A stretch of DNA of 64,000 bases from Geosiphon pyriformis (lineage: Eukaryota; Glomeromycota; Glomeromycetes; Archaeosporales; Geosiphonaceae), in contig JAAOMT010000519.1 in the NCBI GenBank assembly GCA_016748015.1, positions 140,046-204,045 of the forward strand, given 5' to 3'. The notes below the pieces were generated by a model. It ran no database searches and was not told the origin of the DNA. It saw nothing but the letters and a program-made list of their open reading frames with translations. This document shows, piece after piece, positions 1 to 59,901 of the stretch. The translations under genes were made by a program, and so were the position numbers. How positions within the stretch are numbered: position 1 is the stretch's first letter; the number at the start of each line of letters is the position of its first letter.

Positions 1-2350
1 CAATTGGAAATAGTTGATGGCACTTTCAATGCTCCTTTGTACTCCATCACCGGCCCACAAACAATGACCATAGCGAAGCTGAGCTTCAGGAATTTGTCCT
101 TTATCCGCAGCTTCTTTGAAATATTCCGCAGCTTTCTCCATTTGAGCCTTTTTATCTTGTGATGGATTCCCGTTAATATTATAGTAGAGATAATATCCCA
201 CCCAGTATTTAGCATATAAATCTCCAAAACTAGCATGTTTTTGGAAGGCGTTAAATGCAATAATTTTGTCACCATCTTTCTTCTTATATTCTTGTATTGC
301 ATCTTCGACAGACAAAACAGTAGAGAGCTCCGTAATGTCCAAATCAATCACAAGGTCATCATCATCATCAGTATCGGGAAGCTTTGGATTCAAATTAATC
401 GTAGTTATTGAAGGATCAGATATATGGTGAATGAATTCAGGACGAGGCGAAGCTGATGGCTTGTGTGATTTGAGAAGTCTATGTAATCCCGTGAATAGCT
501 CTGTAAGCGAGGGTCGCAAATTTGGGTCATGCCTCGTAGCTATTTACAATCCAAGAAAGCATGCAATGTATTAGAGCCAAAGAAAGGATATTTTATGAAA
601 ATACAGAACTTTTTTATTCACCTTCCAAAGATATTTTTTGCCAATCTAGGGGAACATTAAGGCTGAATGGAAGTGATTTAGAATTAAGGACTGTCTCACG
701 AATCTCTACTATATCTGTTTTTTCATTGTATGGAATCTGTTCTTCGGCAATCTCCCAGAGCAATATGCCAAAACTAAAAAAAGAATTAAACTAAAACGTT
801 AATTTTGCTTTTAAATCTAAACAAACTTTTAATATATATATACCTGAAAATTTCACATTTAGTTGTGTATGGATTTTTACGATGATCTGATAATTTTTCA
901 GGGGCCAAATATCGAACAGTTTCCAAGGTTGGTGCCATTGCTGAGGTTATATCAGTATAATTACGACTGGTGAATAAAGATTACACGAATAAAAAATATT
1001 TAGCTTTTCCAATAGCATTTTTTTAATAATAAATGTAATCTCATACGATACCTTAGAGTAAAATTGGCGATTTTAGCTGCATGATATCTATTTATTAGAA
1101 TATTTTTGCTTCGAATGTCATGATGCAAAATGGAAACTTCATGGAGGAAAGTCAAGCCACGAACAATATCTGTCGCAATTTCAATTCGTCGAGGCCAATC
1201 GATTGGTCCGTAGTTTTCATAATATTCTGTCAAAGTACCGAATTCTGCCCATTCCGTGATCATTAAAAGAGCATTTTCATCTTCCGATACGCCATAGAAC
1301 TGTATGATATGTGGGCAGTCCTTCAATTTTTTTAAGATGGCCACCTGACTCAATATATTTATCTTATTTTCTTCTAGTTTATTGGCAAGCGACCTAGTTT
1401 TGACCGCCACTTCAATTTTCCCCGTGAAGTATTTCTTTTGGACTTTACCTTTGATAACTTGTTCGGATGCTTCTGGATCTGTCAACTTGCCTCGATCAAC
1501 CTTGACCGACTCCATGACACTTTCCGGCGAAAGTTTCTCATGTTGATATGCTGCATGCATGGCAGTAATCACATCAAGCTTTTCATTGATTTTTTGGTTA
1601 GTATCCGTGATACCTCCCTCAATTTTTTCCAAGTACTGTTAGTTTCAAACGTAATTGATATTATTAATGAGGACAAGGAGTTTTTAATTGATGGAAAAAT
1701 TTTGTTTTAACATACATCTTTTAAATCGGCGAGATCACTCTTAATAATTTTGTTGTCTTCTTCCACTAAACTTTGAATTTTAAGCGTCGATGCAAAACTA
1801 AGAATTTGCATCAAATCATCGAATTCTTGAGTGAGAGTTTTAAATTGATCTTCGATGCTATTCGCGCTAAAAAATTTGCGCAACCCTTTTGATAAGTTTC
1901 GACACGAGAATATAAAAAAAGTTAGCTAAAAATTAGTTCAGTGTATCTTATAATTAATATTATCCTTAAACTATTTATAAAATAAAAAAAGGCTTTACCT
2001 TTGACTTGGGATACTTGTTCAATAAAATTTTTAATCCTCTTTATAACCGAGGATAATTTGAGAAAATTCATATAATATTCTTTTTGTCTCAAACTTTCCT
2101 CGTATTCACGTCGCTTAATTTCAATATCTTCTATAGCATATTTGGCCATTTTTACACGCCCCATTAATGATCCACAAATTTTTCTGTTATGTTCCGCTTT
2201 TTTATACAATTCGACAACCTCGCGAACCAAGTTCGTCACATCATTTATCAACGGAATAAAAGGTGCTAAAACGTCTATTACATTTGCAGTCCCTTTTAAC
2301 ACGTTTAAAGTATCGCTGGTTATATTAAATACCGTTTCTTGCTTGCCCAT
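1..2350 (-). CDS. MLKL-like helical bundle + pseudokinase + Sel1 repeat protein (partial, 3' end outside window)
   Basis: Six exons fit one frame: 2350-1999, 1885-1716, 1635-1052, 966-844, 773-622 and 539-<1; the start is ATG at 2350. Residues 1 to about 200 are helical and Lys-rich and resemble the MLKL N-terminal four-helix bundle (HeLo-like) family, with a hydrophobic stretch near 25-45. A protein-kinase fold follows: VAVK with Lys253, catalytic loop HHDIRSKNIL (HHD 345-347, so the HRD Arg is His but Asp and Asn are kept), then NFT at 365-367 where DFG is expected, so the Mg-binding Asp is Asn. The C-lobe motifs APEKL and a FGILLWEI helix are present. The last exon holds an acidic Asp run and Sel1-like repeats (AKYWVGYYLYY, AAEYFKEAADKG, AQLRYGHCLWAGDG) and runs off the window. 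The fold is clear; weak or no kinase activity is inferred from NFT. In animals and plants MLKL proteins permeabilise membranes; such a role here is a hypothesis. Confidence 0.85.
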
Positions 2351-6327: not shown

Positions 6328-8276
6328 ATGTCAATGAGAAATGAAAATAAGCATTCTGTTCAGAATCCAAAAAATAACACAACTGGCCCTTCCTTGAGCC
6401 AACCTTCTTCTTCATCTGTTACAAAAGATTCAGGCGAGCTTCAAAATAAAATTAAAATTTTTAATTCTGTAACAGAGGATGTACCAATAAAATCTGCGAT
6501 GGTGATTAATTTTTTTTACTGATCGAATTTGTAATCAACGTCAAAATTTATTTTAATATTTTAATTTTTGAAAATTTTTTCTTATTTGTCGCTAATTAAA
6601 AAGAACCCAGAAAAATCTCGAACAAATTCAAAAATTTATCACTTGGAAGGAGAAACTAATTTCCAATATAAGTGTTATACCTTCTTTGAAACACCAAAAA
6701 CATTGCCAGCGAAAGCATTTTCCTTCTTGTCAACATTATGTCTTTTAGAAACAGTGGTTACAATCTGTTTAAGTACAATTTCAACTATGAATATAGATCA
6801 AAATTATTTTTTTGAAAAATGGAGGTGAGTAGAAATATTGCTATTTGTTTCAAATTTTATGATAATCTTCAATTATATATCTTTAGAATCTTGATGAATC
6901 TGTTCACAGTTTTTGTCTTTACTGTTGAGTATGCGGGAAGACTTTATGGATCAAAAAATAGAGTGAAATTTTTTTTTGGTGATTAAAACTTTTTTGGTTT
7001 ATTTTTTTTCATACTCATTGGGACTAATACAAAATATATTTGTAAATTGAAGGAATATGGAATCTTTTTGATTTAATATCTATAATATCATACTACCTTA
7101 CGCTTCTCATTCCACTTGGCCAAATTCAATATGTTCGAATTTTACAGTTATTTAGATGCCTCAGAAGTTTTTATTTTCCTCATTATCCAACAGGATTTTA
7201 TGTAAGGTTTTAAAATTTAAATAAGCACAACATTGACTTTGTCATGTCGAAAGGAATTTGTATCGTTTTCAAATTAATTAATCATTGTTGCCTTTCCCGA
7301 AATTTTTTTTTTTTAGATTACCGCTCGAGTATTTAGGCGATCAGCTAATCAAATGGCGGTTTTTTCTGTATGGATTGCAATAATTATTCTCATTTCTTCC
7401 GCGTTAATGTTTTACATTGAACGTGGAGAATTCGATCAAGAAAAAAAGCTTTGGTATCGTATTTCTCCTGAAGGCATAAAAACAAAAAGTCATTATCAAT
7501 CAATTTTCGATAGCTTTTGGTGGGCTGTGGTAACTATTACAACTACTGGTTACGGGGATGCGGTACCGTACAGCCCGCTAGGGAAATTTGTTACTAGCCT
7601 TACAATGTTTTGCGGTATGTTTGTGATTGCCTTACCAACCTCAATTCTTGGCTCAAATTTTATCAAAGAATGGGATCGGGGATTGAAATGCAGACAGAAA
7701 GATAGTAATCAAGAAATGCTTCAAAAAATGCTTCAAGAAATCGTTCAACTTAAAGAATGTATCAATAAGATCAATCCTTCAAAAAACTACAAAAAGTCAC
7801 AGATTAATTATGAATTAGTCGTTCGAAAAAATTTACAGTTGAAAGAAAAATTGGCGAGATGGAAAAGAAAAGCACGCAATATCGAACATTCCCGTTTTTA
7901 TAAAAACTGTGGTCGCACCAAAAACCAAATTTTCAACGTTGAAAACACTAGTAATTTCGAGAATCACTCCTCAACCACTACGCCGAATTCTAGATGTTGG
8001 GGGTTTTCGGACGAGAAGCAGAGTATTAGGACCGCGTTTAGTGCTCCAACTCTAAAATCCGAAGAAAAATATACGCCCAACGTGCCTAGTTATGACCATG
8101 ATAATTTGTCAGAGAATCCCAACGACAAACATCCCGACAGAAATAACCTCCCAGATATAATTATAAGGAGTTCCTTAAACTCAACCGACAAATTTATTTC
8201 CAAAGATCAAGAAAAGGCTGAAATAGAAGTTATAATTGATGTAAATAACCTTCGCTTTGAGACCAAAACACCTTGA
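6328..8276 (+). CDS. Voltage-gated potassium channel (Kv-type, six TM), about 531 aa
   Basis: Exons 6328-6501, 6604-6824, 6887-6978, 7053-7201 and 7317-8276 keep one frame; the first intron has a weak donor (GTGATT) and is the least sure. A short Ser-rich N-terminus leads into S1 (LSTLCLLETVVTI), S2 (LMNLFTVFVFTVEYAGRLYG), S3 (WNLFDLISIISYY), S4 with Arg191, Gln194, Arg197, Arg200 at every third place, S5, the pore helix FWWAVVTIT and the selectivity filter TTTGYGD at 287-293, then S6 (FCGMFVIALPTSILGSNF with the Pro kink). This order is diagnostic of the Kv/Shaker superfamily. The long cytosolic tail begins with a probable coiled coil (MLQKMLQEIVQLKECI) and is otherwise polar. Role: K+ flux at a cell membrane gated by voltage. 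S4 has only three Arg and one Gln, so gating may be shallow. There is no T1 domain in view. Confidence 0.9.
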
Positions 8277-9016: not shown

Positions 9017-10517
9017 GTGTAACTTAGAATAGTTAGACTAAAATATTGAAATTTAAAGGCCTATAATACAAAGGATTTGAATGATCTCATCATTCAACGA
9101 TAATACTAATTGACTTTTTTTTTATAGGTAGGATCTACGCTTCCTCATTATAAATAGATAATCAAAAGATGAAATATGGCTACAAATTAATGGAAGAAAC
9201 AAAAGGGTTCAAAAATCTTTTAACAATGAATACCATTTTTTCAAAGAAAAAAAGCGGTCGCGGTTGCATAAATAACTCTTGCAAAAAATCTAACAAAAAG
9301 AAAGGGTAAGATTTCCCGAATAATTTCATGAATCATACGAGTTTTTTTTGCTTGGATAAACATAAATAGAATGAACCTTATTTGAGGAATTTATTTCAGG
9401 CTTTAACATTAATTCAGACTTCATTTTGCCAAAAACTGAAGATTTTTAGTCTTGTGTAAGCTCAAAATGTGTAGTAATATTAGATGAGAAAAATCTCTGT
9501 GAGACGAATCTCAATGAAAGAAATTTACCTTTTAAAGATAAGATTGAAATATATATTTGGTTATATTTTCAAAATAATTTTTTTTTAGTTATGCACTTTG
9601 ATTTTTTTTTTTCTAGATTCTTTGTTATACTTGAAAAATAATCAAAGATTATTTCTAATAGAATTGGGCTTAATTTTTATTTTAAAACTATAGAATATTC
9701 TGAATAATTACCAAAAAAGTGTATATGAGTTGATTGATTCTCTTTTATGAAGATACCTTTAATAATAGATTTACTAGTTTCGATCAAATTGAAAATTTAT
9801 TTCTCGATCTCAAATTAGAATGTGTCGCTGTCCATATGTAACAAAGATTTTGTGAATTATTGAGTTAGTCAAAAAGGAATTGAATGATTGCCAAAACCTA
9901 ATTAATTACGTCAAAGATATCATGAGAATATTTTTTCCATGTTAAACAAATATCATTCCCTATGTTTATACATATTGTCACACTATAGCACAAAGAATGA
10001 TTTTCTCTTTTATTGCCTTAGAAGGGATCTGGCCGACACCTACCTGCCTATAATAATTATGTTACGATTTACAAAGCTCCTGTTCCATCTTTTTAGATCA
10101 CGAAAACAACAAACTCGGGAAATGATAGAAAAAAAAAAGGATCATTTATGATATTTATTAGATAATGTGCTATTTTTTTTTTTTACCCTAATTCCCAATG
10201 TTAATTTTAATATGTAGGTAACACTAAGTAGTAATAATATATAAACACCCAACAATGACACTCGAATAAAAGACTTTCTCGCTCAAAATTCCATCACCAA
10301 ACTTACAATATTATAAAGTAATTATTTGAATCACAAGTTCAGATACCTCAAAATAAATATTTTCATATTTATATTTACCTGCATTATTGTCTTAGATTTT
10401 TTGATATATTTATTTGATATATTTATTCATATATCATAAAAACTTTTTTTCTATCTTCTGGCCTTCTGTTTGCTCAAAAATATCCATAATAATTATAATA
10501 ATAATAAAAATATAAAA

Positions 10518-12187
10518 ATGGTGAAAAATAAAAATAAAACAGCTGAAACGGCAAAAATAAATTTCCCTCCTATTAATACTACAATTAACCATAAAACTTC
10601 GACTGACCAAAACGAACAACAACAGCTACAACAACAACAACAACAACAACTACAAGGCCAGTCACAACAATCTCCAAAAACATCACATCAACCTCCTCAA
10701 CAACAATCTTCCTCTTCAACAAAAAACAATAATGACCAAAGAATTTCTAATGAGCTCAGCTCAATAAACAATGTATCAGTATCAGATACTATTAAATCAA
10801 ATTCCTCAATCAGTAGTGCAAGGCGAAATTTGTCTTTTGATCAATCAAAATTACCCACGAAAAATTCACCCCAAGCTACAAGGCCAAATTCGACAATATC
10901 ATCTGTACATACAAGGACGAATTCTAGCTTAAGAGCTCAAACGTATTCTCTTACAATTAATGGAAAACCAGTAAAATATATCGCGGATCAATATACACCT
11001 TTAACAAGCGGGTTCACAACAACAGCAACAACAACAACAGCAACATCACCAACGTCACCAACGTCACCAACGTCACCAACGTCACCAAAGTCACCAACGT
11101 TACCAACGTTACCAACGTTACCAACGTCACCAACGTTACCAACGTCACTAGGACACTCACGACTACCACCAACAATAAAAACTGGCCAATCAAAATTATC
11201 TTCAATTTCAAGCCCAGTTTTCTTGGCACAAACATCTTCACCAATTCAAGTGACACCTAATTCTTCAAATTTACCAATTAAATCTACGCGAGTTTCCTTA
11301 GTACTCGCGAATCCTACAAATGTTTCTTCTCCAATATCACCTACCTCTCCTGTTTCGATTAAACTTTCAAAATTTCCAAAATCTCCTGAAACTGAAAAAA
11401 TCATCTCACCTATGGATGAACCTCGTTTGTGGAAAAAAATATACTGGATTTTTATATCCTTCCTAAATTTTATCATATTAGTGGCAAGCTGTGTATTACT
11501 TTACGAATATTATACTCACGTAAGTTTTTAATAAACATGAGTGAGTTTGAGCGTTTGAGTTTGTTAAAAAATTCATCTAACAATTGGCTTCCATTTCAAA
11601 TGATAGGAGAAACTAAATTCACAAACTTCGAAATACATTTTTACCCTCTTATTCCTTATTGACTTGGGAACACGTGCATTTAGTCTTTATACAATTCATC
11701 ATAAATTTTCAAAAAATGAATTATCTTTTATCGGCTTCCTTTCTGTTTTTTGCTGTAAGTTCAATGAATTCTGATTCAAGATTTGAATTAAATCTAAAAT
11801 ATGAAAACTAAAAGTTTCCTTCCTTTTTTAACAGTCAAAAAAGAAATCTATCTCCTAAGAGGCCGCACAAAACTTACCGCATCACAAATTCTTTATTTGG
11901 GTGCAGTAGTGGATTATATTTGTTTCTTATACATTGCATTTTTCGGTTGGGCGATCTATAAAAACTATGGTCATCAAGGCGAGAAAAAAATCTGGGTTAC
12001 AGATCCAGATACACCTTTCTTGATTAATGATTTGGTAAAATACTTGACGTTCGGGTTATTAGGAGTTGCAGGTGCTTTGGTTGTGAGATTATTTTTCCGA
12101 TGGGCAGTTCAGTGCTGGTGTGACGGAAAGCAGAAAAAGGAGAAAAGTGTTCAAGATCTTGATGAATTGTATGTCAGTGTATTGTGA
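10518..12187 (+). CDS. Membrane protein with Gln-rich and Thr-Ser-Pro repeat N-terminal region, about 500 aa
   Basis: Exons 10518-11519, 11607-11754 and 11835-12187 join in frame (GTAAGT donors at 11520 and 11755; acceptors after GATAG and AACAG). The ATG at 10518 has a good context (AAAAATGG); the frame is open upstream but has no ATG. Residues 1 to about 310 are low complexity: Asn/Lys, a poly-Gln tract near 35-50, Ser-rich stretches, then some fifteen TSP or TLP triplets. From about residue 310 the chain is hydrophobic with four probable membrane segments: IYWIFISFLNFIILVASCV, YIFTLLFLIDLGTRAF, ILYLGAVVDYICFLYIAFF and LTFGLLGVAGALVVRLFF. A basic C-tail (KQKKEK) probably faces the cytosol. 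I do not recognise the family. The disordered tail could carry O-glycans or phosphosites, depending on topology. Confidence 0.8.
10619..10658 (+). repeat. CAA-rich repeat coding poly-Gln
   Basis: A run of CAA codons with a few CTA codons inside exon 1 of the membrane protein gene; encodes Gln with single Leu. Confidence 0.85.
11024..11152 (+). repeat. 9-bp coding repeat (ACGTCACCA)n for Thr-Ser-Pro
   Basis: Starts with ACA-rich Thr codons, then about thirteen 9-bp units ACGTCACCA or the variant ACGTTACCA (Thr-Leu-Pro), one with AAG. The near-identical codons show recent slippage expansion rather than old constrained repeats. Confidence 0.9.
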
Positions 12188-28354: not shown

Positions 28355-28447
28355 CAATCCTTAAGCTTTTTAAAAACACCCTTTGGTTTGTAACCGATTC
28401 AAAGAGAAATCTAATAGAAGCTCTTTTCTATAACAGAAAATTCAAAA

Positions 28448-30456
28448 ATGGCTACTTCTGAGAAATCTCATGCTATGACGTATTCTTCAAAATATGCTTT
28501 TCTAACATCTGGTCTACCTCGACAAGAGGATGAATCAAAGTGGCGATACCATTTGAGAAAATTAGTAACCCTTAAAAAATTCTCAGATTTGGAAAAAGAT
28601 CAAGAAAGGTCACAGCTAAAGAAGACATTAGGCCCTTGGGATTTAATTTCTCTTGGAATTGGTGGGATTATTGGTACAGGCATTTTTGTTTTGACAGGTA
28701 AATCACGAAATTTCAGTTGTCGTATTTCGGCTAGGTTTGCCTTTTCAAATAACGTTTCATGCTGGAAATTAAAAATACCACATAAATATTTAATGAGTGT
28801 GTGTGAAAATCTCGGAAAATTTTCATCTTGTGAAACATCAAATTCAATTTATCCTATCAACTTTTTAGGTGAGGCGGCGGCTACCAAGGCTGGGCCGGCA
28901 GTCGTAATTTCATTTTTAATATCAGGATTTGCGGCAAGTTTCGCCGCCCTTTCATACTCGGAGATGGCCTCCATGATTCCAGTGGCTGGATCCGCTTATA
29001 CTTATGCTTATGCTACAATGGGCGAATTAATGGCATGGATCATTGGATGGGATTTAATACTTGAATATGCAGTTGCCGCTTCAGCTGTCGCAGTTGGAAA
29101 GTCAAATTCTCAAGCTTTGAATTTTTATGATTTTTAGTTATCGCTACTCGATCAATGAAATAATAATTATTTTTATCTTAATTCAGGCTGGTCAGGTTAC
29201 TTTAAATATTTTTTTAGAGATGCTTTCGGCATTGAATTTAGTCCAGCATGGACAAAGGCACCAATCCTTTTCAACACCACAACTCAAGCCATTGAAACTG
29301 TAGAAGGGGCATATTTTAACGTGCTCGCATTCTTAATTGTGATTGTTTTGACTGTAATTCTAACTATAGGAATTAAAGAATCAGCTCGAATCAACACCGC
29401 AATCGTCTTTATCAAGCTCCTGGTGGTTATGTTGTTTATCATAGTAGGATCCATTCATGTCGATCCTAAAAATTACAAACCATTCATTCCCAAAAATGAA
29501 GGTCGATTTGAAGCCTTTGGCGTCACTGGAATTTTTTCGGCGGCATCTGTAGTATTTTTCGCTTATATAGGGTTCGATTCTGTTTCCACAACTGCTCAAG
29601 AATGTCGTAATCCACAGCGTGATTTACCGATTGGGATTTTGGGAAGTTTGACCATTTGTACTTTGCTATATATGGCAGTTTGGTAAGTTCCAGATGAATA
29701 GAACTAATATTTTTCAAGACAGAAAATTAACACCACTCTTTCCTATCCAAAATTGGTAATTCAAGCCTAGTATTGACTGGTCTTGTACCTTATAATACGA
29801 TTGATATCAATGCTCCTATAGCTAGTGCAATAAGTGTTACTGGAATGAAATGGCTGGTAGTGATTATAGATTTGGGAGCATTAGCCGGGTTGACTTCGGT
29901 TATTCTCTGTCTATTATTGGGTCAACCACGAATTTTTTTCTCTATGGCACAAGACGGCCTCTTCCCAGCCATTGCGGCCAAAGTACATCCAAGATTTCAA
30001 ACACCATATATCACAACGGCAATAACTGGAATAGCTTGTGCGATCATCGCTGCACTTTTGCCAATAGAAATATTGGCTGAATTAACATCAGTTGGAACAT
30101 TATTCGCCTTCTTTCTAGTAAACATTGGAGTGTTAATTTTACGATTCAAAGCTCCCGATGTCCCAAGGCGTTTCCGGGTACCCGGAGGGCCATTTTTTGT
30201 ACCTATTGTAGGTGCACTATTTAGTATATTACTGTTGGCGACTGCGACACGGGCTAGTATTGAACGATTATTTATCTGGATGGCCATTGGAATCTTAATA
30301 TATGTGTTCTATGGACGAAGATATTCAAAGATTAACAAAAGTCATCAAAAGGAATTTGAAAAGGATCCTGTGATTCATCCCGGGGACTCTACTAGTCCCG
30401 AAGACGATCAGAAAGGTATTGATAAATCGGCTCCTGAAGCTGAAGCTGTTGTTTGA
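28448..30456 (+). CDS. Cationic amino acid transporter-like permease (APC superfamily), 554 aa
   Basis: Exons 28448-28697, 28869-29096, 29187-29682 and 29766-30456 give 555 codons. The protein starts with a polar tail, then the APC first helix signature SLGIGGIIGTGIFVLTG, GPAVVISFLISG, the segment YSEMASMIPVAGSAYTYAY, WSGYF, the conserved GFDSVSTTAQECRNPQRDLP loop, LGQPRIFFSMAQDGLFP and a C-terminal FRVPGGPFFVPI block, with about twelve membrane segments. These match the CAT/YfnA branch (TC 2.A.3.3): uptake of cationic or other amino acids at the plasma or vacuolar membrane. Intron 2 is odd: to keep the conserved VAVG-WSGYF the donor must be G/GAAAGT, that is GA instead of GT. A canonical GT-AG choice (29101-29217) stays in frame but deletes ten residues including WSGYF and inserts one Lys. 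Confidence 0.93.
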
Positions 30457-32836: not shown

Positions 32837-33133
32837 ATGGGTACACGTCCTTATTTCTGTCAAACAAGATTTTGTTCAGCATATTGAAAAAATAATTGGG
32901 ACCACAAAAAAATCAAATGAGGAAAAATGTGCGTCTTTATTTACCGATCCGATTACAACATTACTTTCTTAAAATTTTTCGGCTTTTGTCTTTCCTGATT
33001 AGCTAAATAGAGAATTACTTGAAGTTCTTAAACTAAATGATTGCTGAGGATATATTTAAGAGTAGCATTGAGGAATGAGAAGAGAAACCTTTTTTATTTC
33101 TGCCAAATTCATTAAGAATTTATTCAAGATATT

Positions 33134-34045
33134 ATGCCAAATATAAAAGACACCTCGTCATTAGTTACGGAGAAGCAGGTTAAGAAATTCCTGGAGCAAG
33201 AAGTTATCAATGATGAGTCAAGTAGAAATAAAATAGATTTTAATAGTATTAAACACTTGGAGACTCTTTATCTTTATAGTACTCCACTTAAACTACCCTC
33301 TTCATGTAATGAATTTATTTCTAGTGCAAGTGATCCAATACCTTATCTGCGATATATCAAAACTCTTCACAAGAATGGTATCATTATCATCACGCTGGGG
33401 TACGATGACGATGACGGTCTTACATTACAAAAAATTGTTGATTTTATTGGAATCCCTCATAAACATGACAATAAAGGAACCGCGATGTGGGACATTAAAA
33501 GTCTTGAAAAAAATAACGAAAAACACGTTGCCAGATCGCACCAACTCAGCGAATTTACTTTACACACTGACTGTTGCTATGAGGAAAACGTACCAGATTA
33601 CTTTGGCTTATATGTTGTACAGGATGACCAAATGAATGGTGGAAAAAATTTAGTGATTGAGAGTATTGCTTTATTACAACATTTGTCCAAGAAATCATTC
33701 GACATATTACAAAATCATCAAGTTAAAGTGTTAGTGCCAGGAGAATTTAAGAAGGAAAAAGAATTTATAAATACATTCATTCTTGACAAAGAGCTAGGCA
33801 TTAGGTATAGACGGGAAATCATCGATTCTACAAGCCTAACCACAGAACAAGAAGAAGCAATTGATGAACTCGAGAGACTGATTTACTCACCCTTATTTAG
33901 TAGATCTCTGACTTTAAATAGAAGGCAAATACTTTTGTTAGACAACAAACGTTATCTTCACGCAAGAACCGCGATAAAAGACAAGAACAGACACTTAAAA
34001 CGAATTAGATTTTTTTCAAACGAAATCAGAATGACAATAACTTAA
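33134..34045 (+). CDS. TauD/TfdA-like Fe(II)/2-oxoglutarate dioxygenase, 303 aa
   Basis: A single uninterrupted exon from ATG at 33134. The C-terminal two thirds have the TauD/TfdA layout: GIIIITLG near residue 82, the metal motif HTD at 144-146 in FTLHTDCCYE, PDYFGLYVVQDDQMNGGKNL (family strand with G-G then a hydrophobic strand), and near the end LLLDNKRYLHAR with the distal His276, then a basic strand KNRHLKRIRFF whose Arg would bind 2-oxoglutarate. The 2-His-1-carboxylate triad is complete, so it is probably active; the substrate cannot be told. Closest by layout to the amino-acid oxygenase and clavaminate-synthase-like branch, but this is a guess. Most neighbours have several introns while this gene has none, which would fit transfer from bacteria or a retrocopy. 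Confidence 0.85.
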   Translation: MPNIKDTSSLVTEKQVKKFLEQEVINDESSRNKIDFNSIKHLETLYLYSTPLKLPSSCNEFISSASDPIPYLRYIKTLHKNGIIIITLGYDDDDGLTLQKIVDFIGIPHKHDNKGTAMWDIKSLEKNNEKHVARSHQLSEFTLHTDCCYEENVPDYFGLYVVQDDQMNGGKNLVIESIALLQHLSKKSFDILQNHQVKVLVPGEFKKEKEFINTFILDKELGIRYRREIIDSTSLTTEQEEAIDELERLIYSPLFSRSLTLNRRQILLLDNKRYLHARTAIKDKNRHLKRIRFFSNEIRMTIT

Positions 34046-49696: not shown

Positions 49697-51140
49697 TTAA
49701 TGGCAAATGAAGAATTGATGAACCCATTTAGGGAGAAGTCGATTTTTGGTATTGAGGGATTTCTCTTTCTCTTTTTTCTTGGGAGTAGCATCAGAGGTAG
49801 TATCATGATGAGAAGTTGCCGAAAATTGCGAATAAACAGATCCTCTCACAGTTTCTGAATATTGATTATCATCATTTAAAAAATTTTCACTCTTGTCCTT
49901 ATCATCGATGACCTCAACAAAATCAAAAGTGCCTTCATCGTTCATTGTATTTTGATTATCAACTTCTTCAGTCTCCTTTTCGTTGATTGCATCTATAATT
50001 TCAAATGGCTCCTCTTTTGCAGTATTTTTTTGTTCTTCAAGGTCTTTCTTCATTTTGGTAAGTGTTTCAACAACTAACTCTATATTTGGTCGATTTTTTT
50101 CATCATTGTCCCAACAGCGTTGATATAGCTTGGCATATTGTTCAGGTGTTCCAAATACAGGATCTTCTCGCTCCCCACTTATAATTGAGCTCGTTAATTG
50201 TAATATACCACGCGGTGGGTCTTCAACGAATGGCCTTCTATGACTTGAAATTTCCCAAAATATCATCCCCAATGAATATATATCTGATTTTTTGGTTCTT
50301 TTATAATTGAGATCTTGAAGGAATCCTGGATCCATATATAATGGAGAGCCATCAAAAAGGGTTTTTGTCACAACGGAATCATTCATAGCTGCTGATAAGC
50401 CGAGACCTGTTATTTTTATTTGACGGTTTTCCACTAAAATTCTGGGGGAATTCTAATTGAAAATGTTGATTATTGGTAAATTTCTTGAAAAAAATCCGGA
50501 AATTTGATTAGCACTAACCAACTCAGTGTGAGCAATTCCTTGATCATGTAAGTGTTTGATTCCTTCTGCTATTTGAGATGCCAATTCCACTTTCTCTATC
50601 CATGTCAATGTTTTCTCTGCCTTCAAAAACTCTGGTAGCCATTGTCCTTTGACCGTAGATTCGAGTATGACAAAGTAAGCTTTTCTTGCAGGATCTGGTT
50701 AAAGTACAAAAATTCAAGACAAATTTCGAAAAGAAGAATAAGAAATTCAATTGTATATTATATGTTACCCTCAGTAAGGCCAAAAAATTTTAGAATGTTT
50801 GGATGAGGTTTAAGTTTTGCTAATATTTTAATCTATTTTGTAAAGGAATAAAAAAATTTAGAATTATTGTGATTTATCAGCAGCCAACAAAGCCGGACTT
50901 CAAACGGTCAAAATGAGCAACCTCTTTGACAAAAAGTGCCACAGTATCTTCATTCTTTTCGAAAATGTGATTAAAACTTAAAAGTTGGACCGTTATTCGA
51001 CGTGACATCCATTCTGCTCGCCACTCAGGCCCAAAAATTCCCGGTGTGGTGTACAAAATATTGGAAAATTTCACATATGGATGAAATTCGACTTCTTTAC
51101 TCGCAATTAAATTTTCTACTAGTTCTACTTTAGAAGACAT
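49697..51140 (-). CDS. Pseudokinase (protein-kinase fold lacking all catalytic residues), about 415 aa
   Basis: Exons 51140-50889, 50832-50769, 50694-50519 and 50452-49697 keep one frame; the donor of intron 1 (GTTGGC) is weak. The ATG is at 51140. Kinase landmarks are in order but changed: ITVQLL puts Leu54 at the ATP-binding Lys; Glu73 of helix C is kept; the catalytic loop reads GIAHTELNSPRILV, so HRD is HTE (161-163) and the loop Asn is Arg168; DFG is GLG (180-182); APE is DPG. The C-lobe is well kept (KKSDIYSLGMIFWEIS, RCWDNDEKNRP). After about residue 295 comes an acidic, coiled region and a Ser/Thr-rich tail with no Sel1 repeats. This fold can only act as a scaffold or allosteric partner. 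The MLKL-like pseudokinase at the window start is a distant relative of the same broad family, of a different subtype. Confidence 0.88.
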
Positions 51141-58483: not shown

Positions 58484-59901
58484 ATGCAGTGTCTTCCACC
58501 CTTGCTTGATCCTAATTTTACAGAAAAAACAAATAGACGGAAATATATATTTTTCTTCTTTACAACAATAATTTTTCTCAATTATCTGAGCCTTATTTAT
58601 GACTCACAACGAAAAGACTTTTTAAAATCCCTGCACACACTCTCTGATAAGAAATTAGAACAATTTAAGACCAGTAGAAATTGGATCCAAGAAAATAATT
58701 TCCTAGCAGTAGCAAATTTTTCTCAAATTAGACCTATTTATACGTGGCAAAAATTTTCCTGGGACATGCTACATTCATCAAAAAATTTGTCGAGTCTAAG
58801 AAAGAGAGGATATCCAGCCATAAAAAGAAAATTGGAGGATCCTATAGCATTACAAAAAGTTCAAGTTGCTGCCTGGTATGCCAGTTTAGCTTATTGTCTA
58901 GACAATTCTAATTTAGTGGCTTCAGGGATTCATGGTATAAAAAGCTTTGTTTTTTACATTTTCAAAGATTTACTGCATAAAAAAGGATTATAAATAATTA
59001 TTGAAGTATTTATTTTTGGGTTTTTAGCTTCTGCTTTAGTTGATAATGACCAAATTATCGTATTTATTCGTGGTGAAGAATTTAATGAGAGAGATTGGTT
59101 GCAATTACCTATTGTAATGACAGACTATCCATATGGACGAGCCAAAAAGGCTAAAGTCAATGAGTTCTTTTATAAAAAGTTTCAAGCCACAAACAACCAC
59201 TTTTCTAATACCCTAAACAGCTACATAATAAACTCGAAAATAATAACTGGAGTTATCTTTGTTGGACATAGTTTGGGTGGTGGTAGGTTGTAAAGATTTT
59301 TTCAGTGATTCTAAAGTTTCATAGGCGGTTGTCAATTTTATTCAAAAATAACCTTTAATATATTTATTTTTAAAGTTTATGCAATGTTTGCAGCCCATGA
59401 ATTCTGGAAACTAAGAAATCGCAGTAATTTAGATATACAGGTTTTTACATTTGGACAAGCAAAAATTGGAAATCGACAATTTGCACAAATCTTGAATCAA
59501 GCTCAAGGCTTGAATCAAGCTCAATATATCAAAGTACGAGTGACGCACACGAATGATTATGTTTCTCAGTTACCAATGAGTCATATTGACTATAATTATG
59601 CCCACACTATGATCGAACTTTGGATTGAGTCTGATTGTGATTGCAAAGTACCGGAAGCATTTTTATGTAACGGACCAATGGTAAATTTTCCAGATGGATC
59701 TTTTCAGAGGGAAAGTGAGGTGTGTACAAAAGAAAAGCTTTTTTGGCAGAGCTTAAAAATAATTTTTTATTAATTAATTTTAATTAGGAATGTAATCTGA
59801 GAAAGCAAATTCAGCCGAGCTTTGATCCACACAATGGCCCATATTTTGGGGTAGAGATGGGTTACTGCTCTATAAAACCGCCCCCATGGTTAGATATCTA
59901 G
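58484..59901 (+). CDS. Class-3 lipase with intact catalytic triad, 387 aa
   Basis: Exons 58484-58934, 59028-59282, 59376-59719 and 59788-59901 give 388 codons; intron phases 1,1,0. The ATG at 58484 is the first in the frame. A basic stretch (TNRRK) and one hydrophobic segment (YIFFFFTTIIFLNYLSLIY) suggest a signal anchor or signal peptide. Then AAWYASLAYC, IIVFIRGEEF (oxyanion region), the nucleophile elbow GVIFVGHSLGGG with Ser232, VFTFGQAKIGNRQFA, TNDYVSQLP with Asp296, YAHTMIELWI with His312, a Cys pair CDC, and the end motif NGPYFGVEMGYC. All triad residues are present, so it should hydrolyse glycerides or phospholipids. A 6-residue block (LNQAQG/LNQAQY) is duplicated at 59492-59527. The next gene starts 355 bp downstream and is a tandem paralogue. 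Confidence 0.92.

Follow-up and report, generated by a model that had tools for sequence, protein, structure and literature searches.

The gene that opens the window (the whole 64,000-nucleotide stretch of Geosiphon pyriformis DNA analysed here) encodes a protein of three parts which, as read from its sequence, follow one another in a fixed order: a helix bundle homologous to that of MLKL, a kinase domain whose family has lost both the aspartate of DFG and the glycine loop, and a tail of Sel1 repeats. The same arrangement recurs at other loci of the genome.

The gene lies on the minus strand, running from window position 2350 to 1, and is made up of six exons separated by five introns, all of them GT-AG, with an open frame of 640 amino acids (Table 1). 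The gene model ends at window position 1 and its 3' end lies beyond the window, so that the 640-residue protein is truncated; relatives of the gene continue for about 60 further residues before a stop. The acceptor chosen for exon 2 keeps the frame, and the residues that result from this choice are conserved among relatives. When the window protein was aligned back to the window using a spliced aligner, the same six-exon model was recovered, which is a check of consistency and not independent proof. In addition, two close copies that are free of frameshifts and stops (L033 and L036) each contain five introns, at places matching those of the window gene.

Table 1 Features of the bundle-pseudokinase-Sel1 gene, in window positions
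Feature	Position	Strand	Content and basis
Exon 1, residues 1-117	1999..2350	-	Extension at the N-terminus, then most of an MLKL_N-type helix bundle; gene model, Pfam MLKL_N 37-158, family profile against PDB
Exon 2, residues 118-174	1716..1885	-	Remainder of the bundle match, after which the connector begins; gene model
Exon 3, residues 175-368	1052..1635	-	Connector; N-lobe of the kinase, lacking a glycine loop; catalytic loop; beginning of the activation loop
HHD, residues 345-347, at the HRD position	1117..1125	-	HHD in 16 of 30 fetched kinase loci; invariant in 9 aligned rows
NFT, residues 365-367, at the DFG position	1057..1065	-	Mg-binding Asp absent; none of the 16 HHD loci has an Asp aligned here (partial gap in L046)
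Exon 4	844..966	-	Activation loop, APE motif; gene model
Exon 5	622..773	-	Kinase C-lobe; gene model
Exon 6, runs off the window	1..539	-	Last part of the kinase domain, then an acidic linker and Sel1 repeats
Sel1 repeat, residues 611-639	4..90	-	Pfam, 28.7 bits against a cut-off of 30.7

When the whole protein was compared with Pfam, the domains appeared in the expected order: MLKL_N at residues 37-158 (E 9.9e-6), PK_Tyr_Ser-Thr at residues 233-477 (E 1.6e-42) and a Sel1 repeat at the end, ahead of which an additional Sel1-like unit can be made out by eye. The residues between bundle and pseudokinase (about 159-232) have a helical look, again by eye. Since MLKL_N reached 25.6 bits against a cut-off of 27 and Sel1 likewise fell short of its own, two of the three domains lie slightly below the curated cut-offs in the truncated window protein; for MLKL_N, the score rose to 26.9 bits when the N-terminal part was searched alone and to 29.1 bits when it was trimmed to the bundle. 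The architecture is nevertheless beyond chance, because the same order of parts is found at other loci and because in L033, a relative that is complete, all three domains (kinase, Sel1 and MLKL_N) exceed their cut-offs. For a similar reason, namely that the order recurs in relatives, exons 1 and 2 are treated as part of the gene, and in three relatives (L038, L008 and L006) the matched bundle lies within one open frame. The first-pass annotation had proposed this order of bundle, degenerate kinase and Sel1 repeats, had placed exons 1 and 2 in the same gene as the kinase and had read HHD for HRD and NFT for DFG, and each of these proposals was confirmed. Of the profiles it had named, those for MLKL_N, kinase and Sel1 found matches (the first and last of them slightly under cut-off), and that for HeLo found none. 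It was silent on the retained lysine of VAIK (K253) and on the missing glycine loop.

The relation of the bundle to MLKL is clearest at the level of the family. Seven of eight family N-termini matched MLKL_N in Pfam at E <= 0.01 (best 2.1e-13). When five distant members were included, the match was found at E <= 0.05 in 8 of 13 N-termini, so that most of the distant group goes unrecognised by Pfam itself; the N-terminus of one distant member, searched alone, gave no MLKL_N match in Pfam at E <= 1. A profile was built from seven family bundles, including that of the window protein and leaving out L006, the strongest MLKL_N match. In a search of the 3,910 open frames of the collected loci, this profile reached all five distant members (E 2.9e-11 to 2.3e-5). 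Moreover, when it was run against the PDB, there were 11 matches, the best 7 of them to MLKL (5.6e-8 to 7.5e-5). A 13-row profile likewise gave MLKL the first 7 places among 25 matches (2.2e-10 to 1.1e-8), with the plant resistance proteins ADR1 (E 0.0041) and At5g04720 (0.025) coming next. A phmmer search of the PDB with the window N-terminus alone returned no MLKL at E <= 10, and the claim of homology therefore rests on the family profile together with Pfam. On this basis the bundle is, as far as sequence comparison can tell, homologous to the four-helix bundle of MLKL.

The comparison with HeLo-like bundles that the first-pass annotation had drawn found no support in Pfam: the match is to MLKL_N, and neither with the window protein at E <= 1 nor with family members at 0.01 and 0.05 did any of the HeLo, HeLo-like and Goodbye families appear among the matches listed. 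Weak bundle matches to Focal_AT, Mis12 and similar Pfam families were below cut-off, each occurring in at most two members, and were set aside as matches that helical sequence gives by chance. In all eight sequences compared, the front of the bundle is overlapped by the most hydrophobic 19-residue stretch. A transmembrane helix is not claimed at this place, as in only four of the eight is the stretch equalled by fewer than 25 of 300 shuffles; the window protein, with 82 of 300, is not one of the four. Myristoylation was also considered, the window protein starting with MGKQ; because two close relatives start with MSKQ and MEHQ, a conserved lipid anchor was dropped.

By its motifs, the kinase domain behind the bundle is predicted to be catalytically dead. 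The window protein keeps the VAIK lysine, the APE motif (residues 390-392) and the aspartate of HRD, the latter as part of HHD, and with this lysine and aspartate in place nucleotide binding is possible. Across a nine-member alignment the glycine loop is absent, and the HHD and NF positions are invariant. The kinase loci were drawn from 293 candidates at first look, of which 150 were scored with the window kinase stretch and 30 fetched, so that the number of kinase matches in the genome is a lower bound. When these 30 were aligned on both strands, 16 were found to carry HHD, none of them with an aligned DFG aspartate (L046 is partly gapped). The other 14 comprise one fragment (L055), seven loci with an aspartate at the DFG position and six without; since the alignment is offset for some of these six (a DLG is visible in L063), they are not called dead. 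With L071, a seventeenth HHD locus in which the bundle is also present, the genome holds at least 17 loci with the dead-kinase signature, four of which are broken or truncated. We take the HHD/NFx motifs seen here to differ from those of animal and plant MLKL. A study of pseudokinases across life, published by Kwon and others in 2019, reportedly describes their expansion in these fungi. Elsewhere in the window, at 49700-50698 on the minus strand, lies another degenerate kinase, in which HTE takes the place of HRD and GLG that of DFG; no bundle match was found near it among the window's open frames.

The ancestry of the kinase part appears mixed. Using a single sequence to search the PDB, MLKL supplied 8 of the best 10 matches, whereas a nine-row profile of the kinase family returned no MLKL among the best 60 of 532, with BRAF, CTR1, LCK, ZAK and others in its place; for two control kinases of the same genome, the number of MLKL entries among the best 60 PDB matches was 0 (L050) and 2 (L007). 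Judged by the family profile, the kinase part belongs with TKL-type kinases in general and not specifically with MLKL. Given this discrepancy between single sequence and family profile, we do not claim the whole protein as an MLKL orthologue. The first-pass annotation's MLKL-type reading is supported for the bundle, through Pfam and the PDB profiles, and is weaker for the kinase part.

Bundle and dead kinase are linked across loci. At E < 0.01, the seven-row bundle profile found all but one of the 16 HHD loci, whereas it found no bundle in the other 14, where the best score was that of L066 (0.067); each fetched locus extends about 1.5 kb past the kinase match, and a bundle farther away in the other 14 would be missed. 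Of the 15 found, seven had supplied rows to the profile, and outside it 8 of 9 HHD loci were found. The one HHD locus missed, L045, closely copies the 3' half of the window gene but has no 5' half. The 13-row profile gave the same counts at the same threshold, with L056 as the best of the other loci (0.013).

The Sel1 tail is similarly widespread, being over the cut-off in all four full-length relatives and in five of seven further C-termini (9 of 11). L059 (30.0 bits) and L068 (23.2 bits) are below it, as is the truncated window protein. The MLKL_N score of L038 (16.6 bits) is also below cut-off. In L039 (contig C399), a bundle and a dead kinase are followed by another kind of tail, in which no Sel1 was seen by eye within 6 kb; if aligned gap-free, again by eye, it has GCG at the DFG position. 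L006 is a separate gene with MLKL_N at 46.8 bits and Sel1 at 91.6 bits, in which HKY and NFR replace HRD and DFG. L007 (contig C234) carries an MLKL_N bundle over the cut-off (37.2 bits) ahead of an apparently active kinase, in which both HRD and DFG are intact.

Sel1 repeats and a kinase domain also occur together in the bulk Sel1-kinases of the same genome, but there the order is reversed. By eye, Sel1 lay 5' of the kinase at 17 of 17 places among the matches listed (Sel1 and kinase matches no more than 4 kb apart on one strand, for the strongest Sel1 matches, 150 of 1991 candidates), whereas in the MLKL-like family Sel1 lies 3'. One such Sel1-kinase, with its Sel1 array 5' of the kinase, is located at about 41-45 kb of contig C303, which it shares with four members of the MLKL-like family.

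The reading that we favour, tentatively and as falling a little short of probable, is that the gene encodes an MLKL-type signalling protein that can be switched, in which a membrane-acting bundle is joined through a helical connector to a dead kinase and a partner-docking Sel1 tail. This model, with Sel1 as the docking part, is preferred because of the analogy with MLKL, where, according to the part of a 2025 review available to us, a pseudokinase switch frees the bundle, leading to perforation of the membrane (PMC12881547). In the resting state, the pseudokinase and the Sel1 tail would hold the bundle inactive. Binding of a partner via Sel1, or phosphorylation or a ligand at the pseudokinase, could then induce a change of shape, upon which the protein would oligomerise and its bundle would insert into or disrupt a membrane. 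The role of such a protein would probably lie in defence or in a non-self response of the hypha, with cell death as the last and least certain step. We infer the steps from partner binding to membrane action by analogy. In favour of this reading are the MLKL_N and PDB matches of the bundle, the loss of the DFG aspartate in all 16 HHD loci, the tie between bundle and dead kinase, the Sel1 repeats of relatives and a dN/dS that speaks for constraint on the gene and its bundle. Several observations count against it: the family kinase profile is without MLKL in its best 60 of 532 matches; the window N-terminus searched alone against the PDB finds no MLKL at E <= 10; MLKL_N is matched in 8 of 13 N-termini; the hydrophobic stretch of the window protein is not unusual; the retained lysine and aspartate would allow nucleotide binding; L038 scores just 16.6 bits; and no Sel1 was seen in L039.

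The main rival to this model is a signalling scaffold without killing activity, whose bundle would serve only in oligomerisation or membrane docking, whose pseudokinase would regulate other members of the expanded set of kinases and whose Sel1 repeats would recruit clients, with no pore and no death. We regard this as a serious possibility, if a somewhat doubtful one. It fits with the general TKL character of the kinase part by profile and with a bundle front that is just mildly hydrophobic. It also fits a genome with very many kinase (293) and Sel1 (1991) candidates at first look, an abundance shared by Rhizophagus and other Glomeromycotina in the portions of two reports available to us (PMC8647823, PMC9453076). 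A scaffold accounts less well for the finding that the best PDB matches of the bundle profile are specifically to MLKL, given that in MLKL, as described in the available part of the review, that very bundle perforates membranes (PMC12881547).

Turning to the history of the family, one contig (C303) carries four copies, each of them on its minus strand, from about 21 to 142 kb (a span of about 121 kb). The window gene and L033 are open, while the other two are broken, L034 by 5 frameshifts and 2 stops and L035 by 2 frameshifts and 1 stop. On another contig, L037 is broken (1 frameshift, 3 stops) and L045 is truncated (contig C402); L045 is probably a recent truncated duplication. A kinase tree of 23 rows, from which the broken or truncated L034, L035, L037 and L045, the fragment L055, and five other kinase loci (L058, L060, L062, L066 and L069) were left out, separated 13 HHD rows from the rest by a weakly supported branch (63/65), and none of 500 label shuffles gave clustering as good; L064 and L006 form long branches whose placement is unsure. 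For the three open close copies (window gene, L033 and L036), a simple counting method gave whole-gene dN/dS of 0.40-0.45, and by part 0.32-0.49 for the bundle, 0.37-0.49 for the kinase, 0.50-0.82 for the linker and 0.29-0.40 for Sel1.

Birth and death of copies are typical of recognition genes. The same-strand cluster with two of its four copies broken, the broken and truncated copies on another contig and the whole-gene dN/dS would all suit an allorecognition or antiviral determinant, that is, a duplicating and decaying family whose variant copies would sense non-self via Sel1 and trigger death, like the het genes of ascomycetes. We consider this unlikely, since kinase and Sel1 families expand generally in such genomes and since a recognition surface would predict the highest dN/dS in Sel1, whereas it is highest in the linker and low in Sel1. 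That the gene is an artefact misjoining exons of neighbouring genes, or a decayed pseudogene, is very improbable even though several relatives are broken, given its clean frame and canonical introns, the identical order of parts at other loci and a dN/dS below 1 in every part compared.

MLKL-family homologues found exclusively in Glomeromycotina, with a repetitive Sel1 domain, were reported in 2022 (PMC8778642, seen in part), and the combination is therefore not new as a kind. That family (TCDB 1.A.105) has in common with ours the MLKL-family match, Sel1 (PF08238) and the fungal group. In the window protein the two matches stand at 29.1 bits for MLKL_N when trimmed and at 28.7 against 30.7 for Sel1, and L033 is over all cut-offs. 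In the accessible part of the 2022 report, the account runs to a few sentences without anatomy (PMC8778642); what is added here is the pseudokinase signature, the paralogue cluster, the broken copies and the evidence for an N-terminal bundle. In a literature search of partial coverage, no paper was recognised that describes a conserved dead-kinase signature or the anatomy of this MLKL-like family.

Like animal and plant MLKL (PF22215 MLKL_N plus pseudokinase), the proteins described here have a homologous four-helix bundle ahead of a kinase without the DFG aspartate. Unlike them, they have a Sel1 tail, about 36 residues before the bundle match and a kinase nearer to general TKL by profile. The fungal HeLo, HELL and Goodbye-like domains belong to the same superfamily of MLKL-related bundles (PMC12881547, PMC9815663, both seen in part), and according to the available part of the 2025 review some fungal HELL domains sit in proteins with kinase or pseudokinase domains (PMC12881547). 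The family described here differs from them in that no HeLo-type family was listed for it in Pfam and, for the window protein, no NLR domain. Further background is to be found in the parts available to us of PMC9815663, PMC10197012, PMC10234402 and PMC8141879.

A family that combines an MLKL bundle with a conserved dead kinase brings an early-branching fungal lineage into the comparison of necrotic death in animals, plants and fungi. To our knowledge, it is poorly understood how arbuscular mycorrhizal fungi, in which many nuclei share one cytoplasm, recognise or kill incompatible or infected compartments, and the proteins described here are concrete candidates for such recognition and killing. 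The surprise is limited, as MLKL homologues with Sel1 repeats in these fungi are already in print. A broader scenario, which we think rather improbable, is that these fungi have a necroptosis-like system of their own, in which MLKL-like executioners gain and lose copies, the Sel1 tail would act as a built-in sensor and active bundle kinases such as L007 would serve as partners, directed at non-self nuclei or viruses in the shared cytoplasm.

The genome assembly measures 124.7 Mb in 406 contigs, and the GC content of the window is low. As far as we know, arbuscular mycorrhizal fungi are without cytosolic FAS-I; a search of this genome for the FAS-I helical domain gave no match (among control genomes it was found in 1 of 14). 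Together with the many Sel1 and kinase candidates, these features are consistent with a Glomeromycotina fungus, as the first-pass annotation had supposed. The window gave no match to Rfam at gathering scores. Its plus strand includes open frames that match an ion channel (7317-8276), an amino acid permease (28418-29137), a TauD-type dioxygenase (33116-34045) and a class 3 lipase (59315-59773). Finally, a nine-base tandem repeat of 12 copies (11041-11148) lies within a long open frame of low complexity (10440-11531), the last stretch of which is hydrophobic.
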